Source of the DNA: Polynucleobacter sp. Latsch14-2
GTDB lineage: Bacteria > Pseudomonadota > Gammaproteobacteria > Burkholderiales > Burkholderiaceae
Assembly: GCF_018881925.1 (NCBI RefSeq)
Contig: NZ_JACVPL010000002.1
Location: forward strand, 124,001-188,000
Reading direction: 5' to 3'
DNA length: 64,000 nt
Positions 53,395-62,122 of this stretch are shown piece by piece. The notes beneath the pieces were generated by a model. It was not told where the DNA came from, made no database searches, and saw nothing but the letters and a program-made list of their open reading frames with translations. Numbering within the stretch: the stretch's first letter is position 1; every line of letters starts with the position of its first letter. The position numbers were made by a program, and so were the translations under genes.

Positions 53395-54735
53395 TTGAAT
53401 AATATCAACCACTTAAAGTTAATAAAAAAGCCTCACTCCTATCGAAAAGTAGCTATTGCTGCCTGTTTTGGCACTTTTTTAGAGTGGTACGACTTCTTAA
53501 CCTTTGCTACCTTGGCCGTAGTATTTGGTCCGCTCTTCTTTCCCACAAACGACCCTAGTTCTGGTCTATTAGCAAGTCTAGCGACCTTTGGCGTTGGAAT
53601 GGTAGTGCGGCCTATTGGTGCAGCCTTATTTGGCTCTCTGGGCGATCGTATTGGCCGCAAACCCGTATTTATGATCACCATCAGCCTCATGGGACTTGCC
53701 ACAGTTGGCGTAGGATTTTTACCTACCTATTCTCAGATTGGGGTTTGGGCGCCCCTCCTACTCGTTAGCTTGCGACTATTACAAGGACTATCAGCCGGTG
53801 GCGAGATTGGGGGTAGCGCTGTTTTTTTAACAGAGCATGCAGGCAATACCAATCGTGGCTTTAAAACGAGCTTCTTACAGTTAATGGGTCCACTAGGAAT
53901 AATGGCGTCCACTCTGCAGATAGCCCTGCTACAGCATTGGCTAACTGCGGAAGAATTTAGCTCATGGGGCTGGCGTGTGCCGTTCTGGGTTTCACTGCTA
54001 CTGCTTGCAATTGCATTCCGGGCCAGAAGGGCATTGGAAGAAACGCCCGTCTTTTTAGAACTCAGCAATAACAAACAAAAAGTGGAGTCACAACTCCTCA
54101 ATAACTTTAAAGATCCCGAGATTAGAAAGAAGATGTTTCTCCTCTTCTTTTGCATTTCCTCATGCGGCGCAATTTTGTTCTTTTGCGTCCAGGTCTATAC
54201 GGCAATCTTTCTTAAGACAGCAGTAAAGCTGCCTTCTGAATTAGTAGACCAACTTAGCATCTGCGCAACGCTTGCTCTATTTCCGCTGACTGTATTTGCA
54301 GGCTGGCTTTCTGACAGAATTGGGCGCAAGCCAGTGATATTGAGCGGCCTCATACTTGGCGCAATATTTATTCAACCAGCATATTGGGCACTTGAAAAGT
54401 TTGGGGGAGAATATCTTCAAACAAGTAATACAAATCCCCTAGTCGCCATCGTATTGATTTTGATAGCGCTCTCACTAGTGCTATCGCTGGTAGTTGGACC
54501 ACAAACCGCCTACCTTGCAGAGCTCTTTCCGGCAAAGAATAGGAATAGCGCAGCCACACTACCCCACAATCTTGCAGCAGGCTGGATTGGGGGCTTGCTC
54601 CCCCTAATCATTACTTGGTTGAATCAACTGGGGGGCAACTCGTTGGTAGGGCTTTGGTATCCGACCATTTTTCTTAGCTTGGCATCCATAATAGGCTGTA
54701 TCTTTCTTACCGAAACACGTGATGCGAAGCTCTAA
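53395..54735 (+). CDS. MFS transporter of the metabolite:H+ symporter type
   Basis: This 446-residue protein has about twelve membrane helices and the MHS-subfamily start ACFGTFLEWYDFLTF. The MFS loop signature GDRIGRKP occurs between helices 2 and 3 and again as SDRIGRKP between helices 8 and 9. Relatives carry dicarboxylates, proline/betaine, shikimate or citrate into the cell with protons. The only start near the N-terminus is TTG at 53395, with no visible ribosome site; the true start may differ slightly. The substrate is not predictable. Confidence 0.87.
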   Translation: MNNINHLKLIKKPHSYRKVAIAACFGTFLEWYDFLTFATLAVVFGPLFFPTNDPSSGLLASLATFGVGMVVRPIGAALFGSLGDRIGRKPVFMITISLMGLATVGVGFLPTYSQIGVWAPLLLVSLRLLQGLSAGGEIGGSAVFLTEHAGNTNRGFKTSFLQLMGPLGIMASTLQIALLQHWLTAEEFSSWGWRVPFWVSLLLLAIAFRARRALEETPVFLELSNNKQKVESQLLNNFKDPEIRKKMFLLFFCISSCGAILFFCVQVYTAIFLKTAVKLPSELVDQLSICATLALFPLTVFAGWLSDRIGRKPVILSGLILGAIFIQPAYWALEKFGGEYLQTSNTNPLVAIVLILIALSLVLSLVVGPQTAYLAELFPAKNRNSAATLPHNLAAGWIGGLLPLIITWLNQLGGNSLVGLWYPTIFLSLASIIGCIFLTETRDAKL

Positions 54736-54789
54736 AGACAAGTCCCTAGAAAAACATGGCGTTTAACAACCACTACCCAGCGCACCAAG

Positions 54790-55614
54790 ATGAATAATCA
54801 AAAAATCTCAGCAGTCATCATCGACACTTACCCCAATAAAACATTGCCAAAACTCGCTATTGAAAAAACGCTTGAGTGCGGCAAGATAGGAAAGGTCTAT
54901 ACATTTAGTGACCAGCCATACTTTAATGGTGCTGAATTCGTGCAAATACCAGAAATTACCGATGTGGAGCAATACTCCACCTTAATGATCGATTCATTGA
55001 TAAATTACGTCCATGAGGATTTCATCGTTATTCAATGGGACGGCTTTGTTTTAAATCCCAGAAAATGGAGTGATGAATTTCTCAATTATGACTACATTGG
55101 AGCGCCCCATTTACGTGATAGTGAGAAGATGTCCGTTGGTAATGGTGGCTTTAGTTTTCGCACCCAAAAACTCATGCATGCCATTAAGAAAATTCCCCAT
55201 GCAATAGATATGCCAGAAGATTTTTTAATATGCCATAGACATAGGCATGAACTCGAGCAATTGGGGGTCAAGTTCCCCCACTTGCCTCTTGCTTCAAGAT
55301 TTTCATATCAAGAAGGTCCAGTGTCGCTGAGTGCAGACGAACTATTTGGATTTCATGGTCCCTGGAATTTTCCAAAGTTTTTTACTGAAGACTTCCTGAT
55401 GCCTTTTGCCAAGGAAATTATTGAGCGAACTCTTAATTTCATTATATTGACCTTATACCTAGAAGAATGCAAAAATCAAAGTATGCATTCATTATTTTTT
55501 GAGTCTGTTGATTCAATCAATAGGACGCCTAAAACAATAGAGCTGATTGATGTTTTTTTTCGCAATAAGATCTACGGTGGCTGGGCTGAAAGATTTATTA
55601 AAGTCATGAATTAA
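54790..55614 (+). CDS. DUF5672-family protein, predicted glycosyltransferase-like (copy A)
   Basis: This 274-residue protein matches the uncharacterised DUF5672 family, often found in surface-polysaccharide regions. The core has VIQWDGFVLNP with Asp84, DYIGAP near 101-106 and VGNGGFSFR at 116-124, then FHGPWNF near the end. The Asp-containing loop and NGGFS resemble nucleotide-sugar sites of GT-A enzymes, but no function is shown. It is followed by a methyltransferase-like gene 32 bases on. A second copy lies at 59450-60121. Base composition is more A+T-rich than the core genes. Confidence 0.75.
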   Translation: MNNQKISAVIIDTYPNKTLPKLAIEKTLECGKIGKVYTFSDQPYFNGAEFVQIPEITDVEQYSTLMIDSLINYVHEDFIVIQWDGFVLNPRKWSDEFLNYDYIGAPHLRDSEKMSVGNGGFSFRTQKLMHAIKKIPHAIDMPEDFLICHRHRHELEQLGVKFPHLPLASRFSYQEGPVSLSADELFGFHGPWNFPKFFTEDFLMPFAKEIIERTLNFIILTLYLEECKNQSMHSLFFESVDSINRTPKTIELIDVFFRNKIYGGWAERFIKVMN

Positions 55615-55646
55615 CAAATAACCAAAAATAACCTACCCCACTAAAA

Positions 55647-56396
55647 ATGAACCCCATAATATTTTCTGGCTATAGCAAAGAGTATCTTTCGGTCGACAAT
55701 AACTATGAAGATAACTCAATTATTCAAAGGCATGCAGATAGCCAGATCTTAGAGCTTATGACTCTTCTTAGGGCACCAGTTCCCCTAATGGTCGAATCTA
55801 AGCTATGGGGCTGTGCCGTCCTTCCAAGCCTCATCTCGACGCTTATTCTTAAAAAAGAAGAGTTAACTATTTTGGATTTTGGAGGCGGCGCCGGAAAACA
55901 TTTTGTTGAAATTACTAGAGCTCTAGATAGCTCCACTCTTGTAAGCAAAATTAAGTATCACCTGATAGAGATGCCAAAGTTATGCAGGGTTATCGAACCT
56001 CCACTAAGTCAAATATTTCAGCCGATCTGGAAAGATCTATTTCACCTATCAAACTCAATTGATGTAACGAAATCAGATATTGTGAATTGCACCAGTAGTT
56101 TGCAATACATAGAAAATTATCTAGAGAAAATTGAAGATTTAATTGCTACTGAACCTGAGTTTTTTCTCATAATTAACACCCCGCTAAATAATAAATATAC
56201 CTATTGCAGATACCAGCATAATCTCGAGGTCAAAATCTCTCAGTGGGTTTTTTGTATAAACGAACTAGATAAAATATTTAACGAAAATGGTTACGCCAGA
56301 GTTTTTTTCTCCGCCCACGAACAGGACCACTCAACATTGGATACGCCACCTGATTCAGGAACATTTCAAGGCACGCTAATTTTTCAGAAAACGTAA
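55647..56396 (+). CDS. Putative SAM-dependent methyltransferase (TIGR04325-like)
   Basis: The 249-residue protein has an N-terminal stretch with SGYSKEYLSVDNNYEDN, then TILDFGGGAGKHFVEI near 74-89, a SAM-loop-like motif, and later the INTPLNNKYTY region and an NENGY motif. This pattern resembles the TIGR04325 methyltransferases found in surface-glycan clusters, whose targets are unknown. It follows copy A of DUF5672 by 32 bases. Composition is strongly A+T-rich: the 60 bases from 56161 hold only 18 G or C. It converges with the aminotransferase gene. Confidence 0.6.
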   Translation: MNPIIFSGYSKEYLSVDNNYEDNSIIQRHADSQILELMTLLRAPVPLMVESKLWGCAVLPSLISTLILKKEELTILDFGGGAGKHFVEITRALDSSTLVSKIKYHLIEMPKLCRVIEPPLSQIFQPIWKDLFHLSNSIDVTKSDIVNCTSSLQYIENYLEKIEDLIATEPEFFLIINTPLNNKYTYCRYQHNLEVKISQWVFCINELDKIFNENGYARVFFSAHEQDHSTLDTPPDSGTFQGTLIFQKT

Positions 56397-56464
56397 AAAG
56401 TTTTAAACCTATGTTTAAGACGTTGACTGTACAAGTTTGTAGGGCAACTCTTTGAGCAAATCAA

Positions 56465-57625
56465 CTACCAACCAGATTTCATAACATCTACGATTCGATC
56501 TATTGTTTCGTGATTCATTCTTCTATGGAGGGGTAAGACCAAATATGCGTCTTCAAGCAAGTCCATATTAGGTAAATCATCTCTGCGAGAGCCGAAGATG
56601 CTGTACCTATCATTGCGATAATGAACTTGGCCAGACTCAATGCCATGCTCCCTCAGTTTTGCCATTAAACCCATCCGGTCTTTTTCAACAATAATTGTTA
56701 AGAGCCATGGACAAAAATCAGCTGACAAGCCAGAGGAAGGTTGGATTACTCGGATGCCAGAAACTTTGCTTAAGCCAGCGAGGTAGTGCGCGTACAAAGA
56801 TTTTCTGTCATCAATAATTGAGTCAATTTTTTCTAAATTAGATAGGCCGATTGCTGCGGAAATATCATTCATTTGATACTTGTAGCCAATATCTTGAATA
56901 TCATTTTCCCAAATGCCGCCCTGCTTCTTTTCTCTATCTATACCAAACCAGCGAAGTCTTTTTGCTCGCTCAAGATTCTGGGGATCCTTCATCACCAGCA
57001 TCCCACCGTCTCCAGTAGTCAAGGTCTTGATTGCTTGAAATGAAAATATAGTGAAATCGCATTGGTTGCCCACATAGCTATTATCGTATTTTGAGCCAAT
57101 TGAATGCGCAGCATCCTGAATGACTGGTATACCGTATTTTTTAGCAATAGCGTTGATCTCCGAATACTCACAACAGATACCGCCATAATCTACCGTAACA
57201 ATAGCTCTGGTTTTGTCACTTATCTTTCTCTTAAGATCCTCAATAGATATATTCATTGTTAATGGATCAATATCCAAAAACTTAATCTTTGCTCCGATAT
57301 AAAGCAGGGGGATATTAGTGGCCGTACAGGTAAATGACGGGACTAAAATTTCATCCCCAGCATTAATATTCGCTAATAGATAAGACAAATGTAGGGCATC
57401 TGTGCCGCTTCCCACAGCTAGCGGAGCTGCAGAATCCAGAAATCGATCCGCAATACGCCTTTCAAACTCCTCAACCTTAGGACCCTGACCAATCCACCTT
57501 CCAGATAGAGTATCTCCTACTGAATTGATTGCCGATTTATCAATATCTGGATAAAACAAGACTACCCCATCGCCTTCTTTAAGCAATGGGAATTCATTCA
57601 TTGGTGTATTTACATTTTTAGTCAT
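56465..57625 (-). CDS. DegT/DnrJ/EryC1/StrS family sugar aminotransferase
   Basis: This 386-residue PLP enzyme adds an amino group to a keto sugar nucleotide. It has AVGSGTDALHLS near the N-terminus, PSFTCTATNIPLLYIGA, the QDAAHSIGS motif and the PLP lysine at about 200 in SFQAIKTLTTGDGGM. WIGQGPKVEEFE at the start is also typical. Its ATG shares one base with the previous gene's stop. Its substrate, perhaps a 3- or 4-keto-6-deoxy sugar, is not determined, and no sugar dehydratase or epimerase is present beside it. Confidence 0.9.
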   Translation of the reverse strand: MTKNVNTPMNEFPLLKEGDGVVLFYPDIDKSAINSVGDTLSGRWIGQGPKVEEFERRIADRFLDSAAPLAVGSGTDALHLSYLLANINAGDEILVPSFTCTATNIPLLYIGAKIKFLDIDPLTMNISIEDLKRKISDKTRAIVTVDYGGICCEYSEINAIAKKYGIPVIQDAAHSIGSKYDNSYVGNQCDFTIFSFQAIKTLTTGDGGMLVMKDPQNLERAKRLRWFGIDREKKQGGIWENDIQDIGYKYQMNDISAAIGLSNLEKIDSIIDDRKSLYAHYLAGLSKVSGIRVIQPSSGLSADFCPWLLTIIVEKDRMGLMAKLREHGIESGQVHYRNDRYSIFGSRRDDLPNMDLLEDAYLVLPLHRRMNHETIDRIVDVMKSGW

Positions 57626-58422
57626 TAGTTTCTATTCCCCACCTCAATCAGGTAGCTCTCTAAATTTTTATAATCTCCACATTCACTAAAGTCTTCCACT
57701 TTAGTAACTCCACCAGCCCTCACTCGGCTTGCAGTTTCATTAGCAGTGATGGAGTAGTCAACGCCCTCTAAGTATAAGGTAGTAAAAAGAATTGCTTCAG
57801 CTTGAGGATAACCCCCAACTAAATGCACATATTTCCAAAATAGATCGAAGCGTTTTCCATAAATTACCGCCCCCGAAAGATTAGCAAGCCCGAATCTATC
57901 GTTTAATCCGCCCCATTTTTGCCAGGATGGCGTGATCACCATGGGTCCGGAAGCCTGATCAATAAGGGCAAAGTATTTTTCGAAATCCACTTTATCGTGG
58001 TAAATCAAATCCGGTCTTAAAAATAATACGTAATCAGGCTTAGACTCAGAAGCCAAGTTCCAAACCGTCTGAACTGAGTACATTTCTCTAACCATATTCA
58101 TTAGGCTGGCACCATCGTCTGAATAGATGTCGTTTAAGCCAAGCGCCATCAAAGGTTTTTTATATACCTTATCTAACTCAGATTGCTCTATTAGCTCAAA
58201 AGACTTAGGAACCATTAAATTCTCGAAATTACTTTCCGGGACGCAGGAAAACTCTTCACTTCGAATATTTGTAAATGGCACTGTAGTGTGCATGAGTGCG
58301 CCATAAATTTGATACTCAATTCCTTCTGGAATGGCCTCAATAATGTTTTTATTAATTGAATCGACAACATGGGAGAGGCTCCGATTCATCCCAAAAAAAC
58401 ATACGGCTAACTTTAAACCCAC
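57625..58422 (-). CDS. Unrecognised protein, possible glycosyltransferase
   Basis: From a GTG at 58422, preceded by GGAG at five bases, this protein has 265 residues. It starts as GLKLAVCFFGMNRSL and contains DYVLFLRPDLIYHDKVD and a GGLNDRFGLAN segment. An RPDL motif and NDRF motif recall glycosyltransferase-like proteins handling sugar nucleotides, but I do not recognise a family. The longer open frame to 58497 would overlap the preceding gene by about 60 bases. It sits between a glycosyltransferase and an aminotransferase gene, so a role in glycan assembly is likely. Confidence 0.65.
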   Translation of the reverse strand: MGLKLAVCFFGMNRSLSHVVDSINKNIIEAIPEGIEYQIYGALMHTTVPFTNIRSEEFSCVPESNFENLMVPKSFELIEQSELDKVYKKPLMALGLNDIYSDDGASLMNMVREMYSVQTVWNLASESKPDYVLFLRPDLIYHDKVDFEKYFALIDQASGPMVITPSWQKWGGLNDRFGLANLSGAVIYGKRFDLFWKYVHLVGGYPQAEAILFTTLYLEGVDYSITANETASRVRAGGVTKVEDFSECGDYKNLESYLIEVGNRN

Positions 58423-58438
58423 TTTTTCTCCAGGAATA

Positions 58439-59326
58439 TCAAAGCAAAAGAGGGCTTCTATCGATACCCAAAATAAACTTCTCCTCAATTTTCTCAAAAG
58501 GCGGGGAAGTCTTTATCTCATATTGAGATTTTTCATAGGGAACAAAGTTGCCAATTTGAATATTTTGCATATAAAAAGGCATTGCTGAAGTATGAGTGCT
58601 GTCCTCAATAAAACCGTGATTAGTCGTCAAATTTTCTGGAGGCGTTAAAAAATACAAATCATGCTTCCAGTTAGACAGTAAGAATCTCAAGGCCCAAGTA
58701 TTGATAGCATTATTCTGAATATTGGTCCTGACGGAATAAAAAAAATTAATCACCTTCTCATCATAATTTAGATATTTTGGAAGGGTATTTTGGAAAAAAT
58801 CATCGTCTTGCTCAATGTTGTCATCATAATTTTTCCACCGCTCACTCCAGGTGGCCCAACCCCAGCAGTGGAATATTTGTGCAAGTAAATATTTTGGCTG
58901 AAAAAAATCTTTGGAGAACATATGCGCCATTAGATTATTTCCAGAGATCGCTCCAATTTTTGAGCCATCTTCTAACTTTGAAAATCTTTGGCAGTATTGG
59001 AAAAAATGTTCGTTAAAGGCTATGTCGTCCTCTAAAACGATTCCGAATGACTGCTCACCAAAAAACCAATCGAGCGCCCCTTTTACCGCGGGCCTTAAAC
59101 CTAGGTTTGTTTCATTTCTTCTTAACTTTACTTCGCAGTCCCACTGAATATTTGCGAATGCTGCCTCAACCTGATCTACTTTATTTTTATCCCCTGCAAC
59201 ATCACTCTTATGCCCATCAATTGAAATGTAGACCTGTTTAGGCTTGATCCTGGCAAGATTTTCTACCAACCGTTTTGAAAACTCCGGTCGGTTATAGTTG
59301 AGAAGCACTACAGGTATATCTTGCAT
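58439..59326 (-). CDS. GT-A type glycosyltransferase (HlpA-like/GNT-I-like)
   Basis: The 295-residue protein begins IPVVLLNYNRPEFSKRL, like GT-A family 2 enzymes, has EDD at 99-101 in VLEDDIAFNEHFF as probable metal-binding DxD-type motif, and HCWGWATWSERWKNYDD, a pattern seen in proteins annotated as haemolysin HlpA-like glycosyltransferases. It has no membrane helix or signal. It leads a three-gene unit with the unrecognised gene and the aminotransferase, starting after a 123-base gap that holds no convincing promoter. The acceptor sugar is unknown. Confidence 0.75.
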   Translation of the reverse strand: MQDIPVVLLNYNRPEFSKRLVENLARIKPKQVYISIDGHKSDVAGDKNKVDQVEAAFANIQWDCEVKLRRNETNLGLRPAVKGALDWFFGEQSFGIVLEDDIAFNEHFFQYCQRFSKLEDGSKIGAISGNNLMAHMFSKDFFQPKYLLAQIFHCWGWATWSERWKNYDDNIEQDDDFFQNTLPKYLNYDEKVINFFYSVRTNIQNNAINTWALRFLLSNWKHDLYFLTPPENLTTNHGFIEDSTHTSAMPFYMQNIQIGNFVPYEKSQYEIKTSPPFEKIEEKFILGIDRSPLLL

Positions 59327-59449
59327 TCGTTGATCCAGTTAATTTACAACCCATTAAATCAGGGTTGCAGCTTCTAATTGTCCCAAAATCCCGTCTCTTT
59401 ACAAGCACTGCCAGTATTTAACTAGGATCTTAGCCGCTTGAGCTCAATG

Positions 59450-60121
59450 TTACCTTGGTGCAAGCTTAAAAATATGATCCCTCAGCGCTTTCCCATGAAA
59501 TCCAAATGAAGTACTGGGACTTTGCCCAAAGGCAGCTTCTGGCGATTCCACGGAAAATTGTGCCGCCAGCTCTGGAGTGGGAAACTTTATCCCTGCCCTC
59601 ATCATTTGATCCAAGAGGAAATGGCCAATAATGAGATCTTCAGAGAGGCTCGGAAAAGTCAGGCTATCAAAGTCGATTTTGGCTGTTTCTTCTAATAGCT
59701 TCTTGCTACGCAATGAAAAGCCACCATTGCCAACTTGATTTTGTTTCATGTCCAAGATCTGTTGGGTGGGATGAAGTGTCAGCTTTTCTGGCCAAGGCGC
59801 GCCAATGTAGTCATACTCAAGAAACTTTGGCTGCCAACGATCTGGATTTAAAACAAAGCCATCGGCCTGGATTACCAAACAGTGCGTAGTTTGCACATAC
59901 CTACATAGATCCTGAAGAATAAATTTGCTGTATCCCAAAAAATCGAGTTTGGGGATAAGCCCCGCTTTTATCTTGGCATTGGTTGGTGCGATTGATTCCG
60001 AAGTTAAAAATTTAATCTCGCCAAACTCTATTTCATTCGAAGAGATAGAAAGTGCCAGTAAAGTCTCGTCTAATTCAACCGAGCTGACTGCTATGAGGGT
60101 CACGTCTGGAAGTGATAGCAT
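59450..60121 (-). CDS. DUF5672-family protein, predicted glycosyltransferase-like (copy B)
   Basis: This 223-residue protein is a second member of DUF5672. It shares with copy A the loops LVIQADGFVLNP (Asp87), YDYIGAP and VGNGGFSLR (130-138), and FGFHG near the end. The protein begins LPDVTLIAVSSVELDETLLAL, typical for the family start, so the ATG at 60121 is likely right. That ATG lies only nine bases beyond the CCA of tRNA-Thr on the same strand, with no space for a separate promoter or usual ribosome site. Its function is not known. Confidence 0.78.
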   Translation of the reverse strand: MLSLPDVTLIAVSSVELDETLLALSISSNEIEFGEIKFLTSESIAPTNAKIKAGLIPKLDFLGYSKFILQDLCRYVQTTHCLVIQADGFVLNPDRWQPKFLEYDYIGAPWPEKLTLHPTQQILDMKQNQVGNGGFSLRSKKLLEETAKIDFDSLTFPSLSEDLIIGHFLLDQMMRAGIKFPTPELAAQFSVESPEAAFGQSPSTSFGFHGKALRDHIFKLAPR

Positions 60122-60130
60122 GAAATTTAG

Positions 60131-60206
60131 TGGTGCCCCTTGTCCGACTCGAACAGACCACCTACTGATTACAAATCAGTTGCTCTACCAGATGAGCTAA
60201 AGGGGC
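60131..60206 (-). tRNA. tRNA-Thr, anticodon UGU
   Basis: The minus strand folds as a full 76-base cloverleaf. It has acceptor GCCCCTT/AAGGGGC, D-arm GCTC/GAGC, anticodon stem ACTGA/TCAGT with loop TTTGTAA, T-arm GTCTG/CGGAC, discriminator A and encoded CCA. The anticodon TGT reads ACA threonine. It lies 18 bases after the sspB stop, so it is probably cut from the transcript running through petABC-sspAB. Confidence 0.97.
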
Positions 60207-60224
60207 AACGGATGATATTGTAGC

Positions 60225-60632
60225 TTATTTCACAATCGTTAACGAAGGCCTAGCAGTTTTTGCCTTTTCTGCGTTATGTTCTGCCTTATCTGAAGTAGGT
60301 ATGGCTTTAAGCTGCGTAGGGTCAAATGGGAAAGACATGCCTTGGCCATTCTCCTTGGCATAAATGGCCAAAATATGGGTAATCGGAACCAATATCTTTT
60401 TAGGTACTCCGCCAAACCTAGCCTGGAAGCTGATGTAATCATTTTCCATTTGCAATTGATGGCAAGCTTCAATCGACAAATTCAGAACGATTTCATCATT
60501 CTTAACGAACTCCATCGGCACTTCTACTCTAGAGTCGACAAATACCGCCATGAAGGGCGTAAAACCATTATCCGAGCACCACTGATGTAGCGCTCGGATA
60601 AGATAGGGTTTATTGCTTGGTATGTCAGACAT
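60225..60632 (-). CDS. sspB: ClpXP protease specificity-enhancing factor SspB
   Basis: SspB delivers ssrA-tagged and some other proteins to ClpXP. The 135-residue protein has the substrate-binding fold (PYLIRALHQWCSDNGFTP, FQARFGGVPKKILVP, ILAIYAKENGQGM) and, after a flexible linker, the C-terminal ClpX-tethering peptide RPSLTIVK. It follows sspA by 30 bases, as in many proteobacteria, and is followed by tRNA-Thr. Confidence 0.95.
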   Translation of the reverse strand: MSDIPSNKPYLIRALHQWCSDNGFTPFMAVFVDSRVEVPMEFVKNDEIVLNLSIEACHQLQMENDYISFQARFGGVPKKILVPITHILAIYAKENGQGMSFPFDPTQLKAIPTSDKAEHNAEKAKTARPSLTIVK

Positions 60633-60662
60633 ACTGAGTTGTCATGAACCGCTGAATACTAC

Positions 60663-61274
60663 TTAGCGGCGCATTACCTTCTCTGAAGGTGTCAAGGCCT
60701 CAATATAGGCAGGCCTACTAAAAATACGCTCTGCATACTTGAGTAAGGCTGCTGCATTACGCGAAAGGTCGATACCGTAGTGCTCCAGACGCCATAACAA
60801 TGGTGCAATGGCTACATCCAACATGGAGAACTCTTCGCCTAGCATGTACTTGTTCTTCACGAAGATTGGAGCAAGTTGAGTTAAGCGATCACGAATAGCT
60901 AAACGAGCTTTTTCGTGAGTCTTTTCTGCGGCTTTACCTTTTTCATTTTCCAGGGCAGCTACATGCACAAACAGCTCTTTCTCAAAATTGAAGAGAAAAA
61001 GGCGTGCGCGTGCGCGTGCAACTGGATCAGGCGGCATCAATTGTGGATGGGGGAAACGCTCATCGATGTATTCATTGATGATATTTGACTCATACAGAAT
61101 TAAGTCGCGCTCTACCAAGATTGGAACTTGGCCATAAGGGTTCATCACCGAGATGTCTTCTGGCTTGTTAAACAAGTCCACATCACGGATCTCAAAGTCC
61201 ATGCCTTTTTCAAAAAGCACTAGACGGCAGCGTTGCGAGAATGGGCAATTAGTGCCCGAGTACAACACCATCAT
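60663..61274 (-). CDS. sspA: Stringent starvation protein A
   Basis: SspA is a glutathione-transferase-fold protein that binds RNA polymerase and affects stress and late-growth transcription in E. coli. The 203 residues include the N-terminal thioredoxin-like part (MVLYSGTNCPFSQRCRLVLFEKG), NPYGQVPILVERDLIL, and a C-terminal helical domain with MLDVAIAPLLWRLEHYG. It begins with two ATG codons after an AAGGAC site. It lies 74 bases after the cytochrome c1 gene on the same strand. Confidence 0.95.
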   Translation of the reverse strand: MMVLYSGTNCPFSQRCRLVLFEKGMDFEIRDVDLFNKPEDISVMNPYGQVPILVERDLILYESNIINEYIDERFPHPQLMPPDPVARARARLFLFNFEKELFVHVAALENEKGKAAEKTHEKARLAIRDRLTQLAPIFVKNKYMLGEEFSMLDVAIAPLLWRLEHYGIDLSRNAAALLKYAERIFSRPAYIEALTPSEKVMRR

Positions 61275-61348
61275 AAATTTATGTCCTTAAATTTCTACAT
61301 CAATACAGCAAACATACAGCAAACAGCGGCTTTAAATCAAATTCAAAC

Positions 61349-62122
61349 TTAGTGAATATCTTTCCAGTAAGCTTTGTTCAAACGCGAAGCAAACAAGGTG
61401 AAGATTGCTAAGAATAAAAGCACAATAACGCCAAGACGCTTACGCTCTAACTGAACTGGCTCGGCCATCCAAGACATGAACGCAACTAAGTCGGCGATAT
61501 TGTCATCGTATTCTTGAGGCTTCATGGTGCCTGGTGTTAATTGCTCAAACCCAACAAATACTTTTTCCATGCGGCCTTCATCATGAGGGTCTTTTTGCTC
61601 TTCAAACTTCGCAGCACGCTCACCCTGCAGTTGCCATAAAACATGTGGCATACCTACGTTTGGATAGACCAAGTTATTCCAACCTGTTGGACGATCATCA
61701 TCCTTATAGAAGCTACGGAAGTAGGTATACAACCAGTCCGCCCCACGAGCACGAGCCTCAACTGACAAGTCAGGTGGGTTTTTACCAAAGAACGCTTTAC
61801 CGTCCTTAGCCGTCATGGAGATTGTCATGAGATCGCCAACCTTAGCGTCATTCAAAATCAAATTGTCTTTAATCTGTTGATCAGTCAAGCCAATATCACG
61901 CAGACGGTTGTAACGCATGTTTGAAGCAGCGTGGCAATTTAAGCAATAGTTAACAAAGATCTTTGCGCCATTTTGTAATGAAGCATTTTTACTAACGCGA
62001 TCTGGCGCCTTATCCAATGGATAGCCACCTTCATTCGCGCTAACAGTCGCGCCTACACCAAGAGCAACAACCAAGACTGTTGCCTGGCAGATGCCCATCA
62101 AAGTTTGCAGAATTCGTTTCAT
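61349..62122 (-). CDS. petC: Cytochrome c1 of the bc1 complex
   Basis: Cytochrome c1 takes electrons from the Rieske protein and passes them to soluble cytochrome c. The 257-residue protein has a signal peptide (to about VSANEGG), the haem motif CLNCH with NYCLNCHAAS near residues 52-61, and a C-terminal membrane helix (VIVLLFLAIFTLFASRLN) that anchors it. An AGGAA site precedes the ATG. It is third in petA-petB-petC. Confidence 0.97.
   Translation of the reverse strand: MKRILQTLMGICQATVLVVALGVGATVSANEGGYPLDKAPDRVSKNASLQNGAKIFVNYCLNCHAASNMRYNRLRDIGLTDQQIKDNLILNDAKVGDLMTISMTAKDGKAFFGKNPPDLSVEARARGADWLYTYFRSFYKDDDRPTGWNNLVYPNVGMPHVLWQLQGERAAKFEEQKDPHDEGRMEKVFVGFEQLTPGTMKPQEYDDNIADLVAFMSWMAEPVQLERKRLGVIVLLFLAIFTLFASRLNKAYWKDIH

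Follow-up and report, generated by a model that had tools for sequence, protein, structure and literature searches.

The sspB, tRNA-Thr and DUF5672 locus

The window, the whole 64,000-nucleotide stretch of the Polynucleobacter sp. Latsch14-2 genome that was analysed, carries on its minus strand sspB, a tRNA-Thr(TGT) gene and a gene of the DUF5672 family, in that order and separated by 18 and 9 nt (Table 1). The coordinates agree with the co-orientation and the two short gaps reported in a first-pass annotation of this DNA. In the genome's list of 37 tRNA genes, this is the only one for Thr(TGT). The gene preceding sspB encodes a GST-type protein (Pfam) and is presumably sspA; a strong 15-pair hairpin that has a weak T run lies close to the sspB start (60568-60601, minus strand). 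On the other side, the space between tRNA-Thr and a gene for an MFS transporter is occupied by a variable region of ~5.4 kb (54736-60121), some of the genes of which are sugar-related. Two weaker terminator-like sites lie inside the DUF5672 gene, at 59856-59868 and 59514-59529.

Table 1. Features of the window from the MFS transporter gene to sspB
Feature	Position	Strand	Evidence or remark
MFS transporter gene, other edge of variable region	53395..54735	+	PF00083, PF07690
Rest of variable region, between MFS gene and DUF5672 gene	54736..59449		
Second, distant DUF5672 gene in variable region	54790-55614	+	Pfam
ORF in variable region	55647-56396	+	No Pfam match
DegT-type aminotransferase gene in variable region	56465-57625	-	
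ORF in variable region	57625-58497	-	No match above cut-off
ORF in variable region	58439-59326	-	No match above cut-off; GNT-I below cut-off
DUF5672 gene, 223 aa, ATG start, predicted GT-A-fold glycosyltransferase	59450..60121	-	PF18922, E 2e-21
tRNA trailer / mRNA leader, CTAAATTTC, 9 nt	60122..60130	-	Between CCA and ATG
tRNA-Thr(TGT), encoded CCA	60131..60206	-	ARAGORN
sspB-tRNA gap, 18 nt	60207-60224	-	
TANAAT box (TACAAT here), candidate -10 of tRNA-Thr promoter	60217..60222	-	Conserved in 93/93 sites with the tRNA 17 or 18 nt behind sspB
sspB	60225..60632	-	PF04386 SspB, E 6.1e-33

The DUF5672 protein scores 76.8 bits against PF18922, for which the gathering cut-off is 24.4. Its AlphaFold2 model (34 sequences) has a mean pLDDT of 94.4 and a pTM of 0.91, and nearly all of the 50 Foldseek matches listed are glycosyltransferases (best E 8.4e-07, TMq 0.38-0.61), chondroitin synthase, exostosin, UGGT and glycogenin among them; eIF2B, IspDF and CpsY are among the exceptions. 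The predicted fold is that of a GT-A glycosyltransferase, a name read from these matches. The protein would be expected to have glycosyltransferase activity, and fold and neighbouring genes together suggest a role in surface glycans. In the model, the first strand begins at residue 2, making a later start codon unlikely; on this ground and on that of a conserved N terminus, the notion that the gene is truncated and starts farther in was rejected.

Conservation of the tRNA-DUF5672 junction

Among 186 Polynucleobacter genomes, the tRNA-Thr pattern is present in at least 152, a DUF5672 match with an E value no higher than 0.001 in 51 and a close DUF5672 group, defined by at least 61% identity, in nine, the window's genome included. 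One of the nine (G187), in which the match begins at residue 63 at a contig edge, was left out of the testable orthologues. In all eight that remain, the ATG lies 8-11 nt after the CCA of the same tRNA (gaps of 8, 8, 9, 9, 9, 9, 10 and 11 nt), and the proteins have the N terminus MLxL..(V/I)TL in common. The seven other orthologues are 61-76% identical to the window protein, with silent sites near saturation. Pairwise values of pS (0.64-0.86) and pN (0.09-0.28) indicate that the gap had time to change; its letters did so and its length remained short. Judged from these substitutions, the orthologues are evidently under strong purifying selection and, the gap being short in every one of them, production of the protein must be compatible with the arrangement. 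It is real and conserved in these freshwater bacteria, and it is probably functional.

Gaps of 8, 9, 10 and 11 nt span all three reading frames, and a fusion of the protein to translated tRNA is consequently no conserved feature; the same frame shifts argue against the 3' half of the tRNA as a conserved N-terminal extension, a possibility that was considered and set aside. In four genomes (G000, G077, G173 and G120), the open frame ends within the tRNA with no start codon before the ATG. In three others (G071, G065 and G189), it extends back into the tRNA and contains an in-frame GTG there, which may serve as an upstream start in these three only.

In a tree of 28 DUF5672 proteins, the eight tRNA-linked members form one clade with a support of 100/100. 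The linkage is shown here, as far as the protein tree can tell, to have a single origin, and the eight cases thus amount to one inherited event. More distant DUF5672 genes of the genus were represented by 28 fetched loci, none of which has a tRNA within 100 nt upstream; two of these loci hold a tRNA, in both cases tRNA-Leu, ~130 nt and 1.2 kb upstream. The nearer of these distances is seen at L165 (genome G197), where the tRNA-Leu is on the same strand as the DUF5672 gene, a hint of a second tRNA hotspot. A contig search with a single protein as query was without match, and one with an alignment as query gave matches. Of the 80 loci of the alignment-based search, 38 were scanned for a tRNA within 100 nt upstream, with a positive result at L179 (Polynucleobacter meluiroseus AP-Melu-1000-B4), L180 and L181 and none at the other 35; the three correspond to G077, G189 and G173 and add no extra cases.

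Transcription across the junction

At all 93 sites with tRNA-Thr 17 or 18 nt behind sspB, a TANAAT box ends 9-10 nt before the first base of the tRNA; at fifteen further sites, outside this count, the distance from sspB is 19-28 nt. Among 21 sites without an sspB match, inspection by eye found a TAAAAT, TACAAT or TATAAT box 8-13 nt before tRNA-Thr in 16 and no such box near it in five. The box is absent from three sspB genes that have no tRNA directly behind them. The last codons of sspB overlap the conserved region upstream of tRNA-Thr, and the third positions of the last seven are less variable than those farther upstream. From its sequence and position, the box is a candidate -10 element of a tRNA-Thr promoter. 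It was not called by a sigma-70-type scan because a -35 element at normal spacing is missing, a TTGAnG lying just 14 nt away.

The same scan, applied to 59300-61400, returned three sites overall, compared with 3.9 in shuffled sequences, and no minus-strand site between 60437 and 59300. With a 9-nt gap and an empty scan, the first-pass statement that a promoter would not fit between tRNA and gene stands. A promoter of the gene's own could in principle lie within the tRNA or the tail of sspB, with the mRNA beginning at or beside the AUG regardless of tRNA processing, and a primary leaderless start of this kind would be consistent with the missing leader. This sigma-70-type scan, which also misses the TANAAT box, speaks against it, as does the near identity of tRNA-Thr at sites without a gene behind it, and we give this explanation hardly any credence.

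Terminators were sought behind tRNA-Thr at 129 sites, these being the distinct sequences among the matches listed, mainly from well-assembled genomes, some of which gave two. A terminator-like hairpin with a T run is found at 60 of them, compared with 4 of 645 shuffled sequences. It is missing from 8/8 DUF5672 sites versus 61/121 others (p 0.007). At 25 sites, eight of them DUF5672, an ORF of 150 aa or more starts with ATG no farther than 45 nt behind the tRNA, and 24 of these sites lack the hairpin, compared with 45/104 of the rest (p 6e-7); both p values are optimistic since the sites are related. At the one exception (L093), the ATG lies within the hairpin itself; this ORF is probably spurious, and it was rejected as a tRNA-linked gene. 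An MFS transporter homologue converges on tRNA-Thr at 56 of the 129 sites, and in four of the eight orthologue genomes DUF5672 is the sole gene between the two. Where it stands alone before a convergent gene, its transcript must cross the tRNA or start within it. Tests for a tRNA-mRNA unit thus find both genes on the same strand, no intervening terminator and no space for a promoter serving the second gene.

The translation start

The gap contains no Shine-Dalgarno sequence, the pairing energy being 0 in 8/8 orthologues. As the first-pass annotation recognized, the only such stretch nearby, AAGGGG, is the 3' strand of the tRNA-Thr acceptor stem and ends 14 nt before the ATG (13-16 nt across the orthologues), which is a poor distance for a Shine-Dalgarno interaction. 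The first-pass description of the mRNA as almost leaderless, should 3' cleavage release the tRNA, is also supported; cutting after the CCA would leave at most 9 nt here and 8-11 in relatives. Of 54 mechanically called ORFs of at least 150 aa in the window, only 43% reach a pairing energy of -4 kcal/mol or better with the 16S rRNA tail upstream of their first ATG, and 57% do so when the best start is taken. Shine-Dalgarno-poor starts are therefore frequent in the window, and their occurrence at DUF5672 is ordinary and requires no special device.

In the predicted fold of the uncut RNA, the cloverleaf is kept, the acceptor stem is closed with AAGGGG included and the gap is single-stranded; the folding energy of the junction RNA is unremarkable (z -0.39, with 71 of 200 shuffles folding as well). 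According to this model, a paired acceptor stem close before the AUG should hinder rather than help the ribosome, and a start codon that close to the folded tRNA, at 9 nt, would leave little room for the 30S subunit. These considerations bear on the first-pass suggestion that tRNA cutting switches translation off, in which the uncut transcript would be translated by means of AAGGGG and cleavage would remove that stretch and silence the gene. AAGGGG does pair with the 3' end of the 16S rRNA of the window's genome (GGATCACCTCCTTT) at -6.1 kcal/mol. It is, however, tRNA sequence, present with or without a gene behind it, and its distance from the AUG in the orthologues and its pairing in the predicted uncut RNA both tell against such a role. 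The processing of tRNAs is normally efficient and would leave the gene nearly always off, despite the purifying selection under which the short gap has been kept in all eight orthologues. The suggestion is not supported and we give it little credence; off is the least likely direction of any effect of cutting, an on switch or a neutral outcome being likelier.

The junction gaps of the eight orthologues are also without G, with none in 73 bases. The absence of G was considered as a translation signal and rejected: 50 of the 60 terminator sites have no G in the first 9 nt after the CCA, compared with 7 of 47 window ORFs in the 9 nt preceding the start codon, which makes it a property of the tRNA-Thr trailer. 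A G-poor trailer could be the reason that no Shine-Dalgarno sequence arose in the gap.

Other genes behind tRNAs

DUF5672 is not alone in its position behind tRNA-Thr. At L085, a gene with TPR and Glyco_transf_41 domains (TPR-GT41) begins 5 nt after the CCA. At seven sites (L017, L026, L075, L108, L133, L138 and L153), ORFs of 355-358 aa with similar starts lie 27-30 nt behind the tRNA, and the five of these that were checked pair weakly with the 16S tail. A Pfam search of the genes behind tRNA-Thr at L017, L019 and L078 gave no useful match, and none at all for L017. Extra copies of tRNA-Thr, in opposite orientation or near contig ends, are preceded by an apparent remnant of the sspB tail at L080, L142 and L143 (genomes G096, G062 and G136); from their sequences, these remnants hint at elements integrating at tRNA-Thr.

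A second close pair is found in the window's genome, where an ORF of 160 aa begins 5 nt after the CCA of tRNA-Leu(TAA) (L287:1595-2077, plus strand). Pfam assigns it no family, and its N terminus is, in our reading of the sequence, signal-peptide-like. Homologues occur in 120 of the 186 genomes, and 30 loci from these were examined. The ATG lies 5-9 nt after tRNA-Leu in eight, the window genome's included: at 5-8 nt in G000, G034, G173, G187 and G196, the frame of G187 containing a stop, and at 9 nt in G091, G092 and G016. In ten, the tRNA is present, no ATG lies near it and a TTG is found at 20-21 nt; for the remaining 12, the sequence examined shows no tRNA in the 400 nt upstream.

A survey restricted to distinct tRNA genes followed by at least 300 nt of sequence counted ATG-started ORFs of at least 90 aa beginning no more than 12 nt from the tRNA end. 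It found 2/35 in the window's genome (Thr at 9 nt, Leu-taa at 5 nt), 2/38 in a second Polynucleobacter genome (Thr at 10 nt, Leu-taa at 9 nt) and 0/63 in one other Burkholderiales genome (G040, in which 63 distinct tRNA genes out of 77 tRNA matches had enough sequence). In the second genome, a TTG within 12 nt of tRNA-Ser cga and gct was not counted, the first ATG being at 23 and 89 nt. Pooled over these three genomes, 4/73 versus 0/63 is not significant (Fisher p 0.12). It is the conservation of the junction, 8/8 at 8-11 nt, and not these counts, that is strong evidence of its being non-random. Looser pairs were also seen: tRNA-Pro(GGG) at L289 and L353, in two genomes, followed by an ORF at distances of 19 nt (thioesterase family) and 27 nt; tRNA-Trp with an ORF, presumably secE, 20 nt behind it in both genomes (L271 and L339), that of the window's genome having 125 aa; and, in the window's genome, tRNA-Thr(GGT) 89 nt ahead of a 396-aa ORF that we take to be tuf.

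A more passive history is suggested by the genes found behind tRNA-Thr at 25 of the 129 sites. DUF5672 may simply have come to rest at an insertion hotspot and be expressed by read-through, with Shine-Dalgarno-less translation occurring in part ahead of processing and in part after it; the short gap would then have no regulatory meaning. Tetherings of this kind have a parallel in the tRNA-flanked islands with polysaccharide genes described in Methylophilaceae (excerpts of PMC10872708), and starts without a Shine-Dalgarno sequence are common in the window. Such a history sits less well with a gap that has stayed at 8-11 nt while silent sites diverged almost to saturation, and with the second pair at tRNA-Leu(taa); we regard it as possible, on balance unlikely.

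A proposed route to a near-leaderless mRNA

The reading that we favour, with some confidence, is that tRNA-Thr(TGT) and DUF5672 form a transcription unit, 3' processing of which yields a near-leaderless mRNA that is translated without a Shine-Dalgarno sequence. A tRNA-Thr promoter in the 3' end of sspB would drive both genes as one unit, with read-through from sspB as a possible contribution, and transcription would continue into DUF5672 for want of the tRNA-Thr terminator. Processing behind the CCA would then release tRNA-Thr and an mRNA with its 5' end 0 to ~11 nt before the AUG, from which the enzyme would be made, probably from a near-leaderless 5' end. Activity of the promoter, co-transcription of the two genes, the site of cleavage, the way in which translation is initiated and the activity of the enzyme are all predictions of this scheme.

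By analogy, the 9-nt gap would fit an A/U-rich single-stranded cleavage site of the kind used by RNase E. According to excerpts of PMC3985628, the E. coli enzyme cleaves A/U-rich single strands no more than 15 nt from the 3' ends of some tRNAs, and AU-rich tRNA trailers are reported to be conserved in bacteria with RNase E. For P. acnes pre-tRNAs with encoded CCA, mapped cleavage a few nt downstream is described in excerpts of PMC3848588. These excerpts also report that P. acnes leaderless 5' ends are mapped transcription starts, whereas tRNA processing would generate that of DUF5672, possibly leaving up to 11 nt before its AUG. An AUG at or near the 5' end and the lack of a Shine-Dalgarno sequence would otherwise place the DUF5672 message beside the leaderless mRNAs described in Mycobacterium (excerpts of PMC4633059) and P. 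acnes (PMC3848588). The latter source, in the part available, cites E. coli leaderless mRNAs made post-transcriptionally by a toxin mRNase, which are a precedent for making leaderless messages by cutting. The neighbourhood likewise resembles the tRNA-flanked flexible genomic islands of PMC10872708 (excerpts) in having variable sugar-related genes beside a tRNA, and differs from them, as they are portrayed there, in that the first gene follows the tRNA without a terminator and almost without a leader.

No description of a tRNA followed by a near-leaderless gene was found in the open-access literature searched. Operons that combine tRNA and mRNA are known, among them tRNA-Thr with tuf (thrT-tufB of E. 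coli) and tRNA-Trp with secE. As in these, a tRNA and a protein gene lie here on the same strand in what looks like a single unit. The present case differs in that they have room for a leader, whereas the start codon here is 8-11 nt after the CCA, and in that the DUF5672 cargo belongs to a variable region. At such a distance, tRNA maturation would define the 5' end of the mRNA. In the tRNA punctuation model of mitochondria, the excision of tRNAs frees the mRNAs between them, and excision of tRNA-Thr would similarly yield a near-leaderless mRNA; unlike in mitochondria, the setting is a bacterial chromosome with ordinary ribosomes and few such loci, and processing is predicted from sequence.

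More speculatively, we can envisage a bacterial form of tRNA punctuation acting as an on switch, in which 3' maturation of tRNA-Thr(TGT) and, separately, of tRNA-Leu(TAA) frees near-leaderless mRNAs whose start codons would otherwise be blocked by the folded tRNA. This is a tentative proposal that is more likely to be wrong than right. If true, it would tie the output of a sugar-transferring and an exported protein to tRNA synthesis and maturation, and hence to growth, and the G-poor trailer would prevent a Shine-Dalgarno sequence from arising.

What sets the DUF5672 case apart from the known tRNA-mRNA operons is the absence of room for a conventional leader, such that tRNA processing and the start of translation would share nine nucleotides. 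It offers a natural, conserved system in which to ask whether, in an ordinary proteobacterium, RNA processing can give rise to near-leaderless mRNAs that are translated. It also suggests a route by which variable glycan genes may come under the promoter of a tRNA gene present in one copy.
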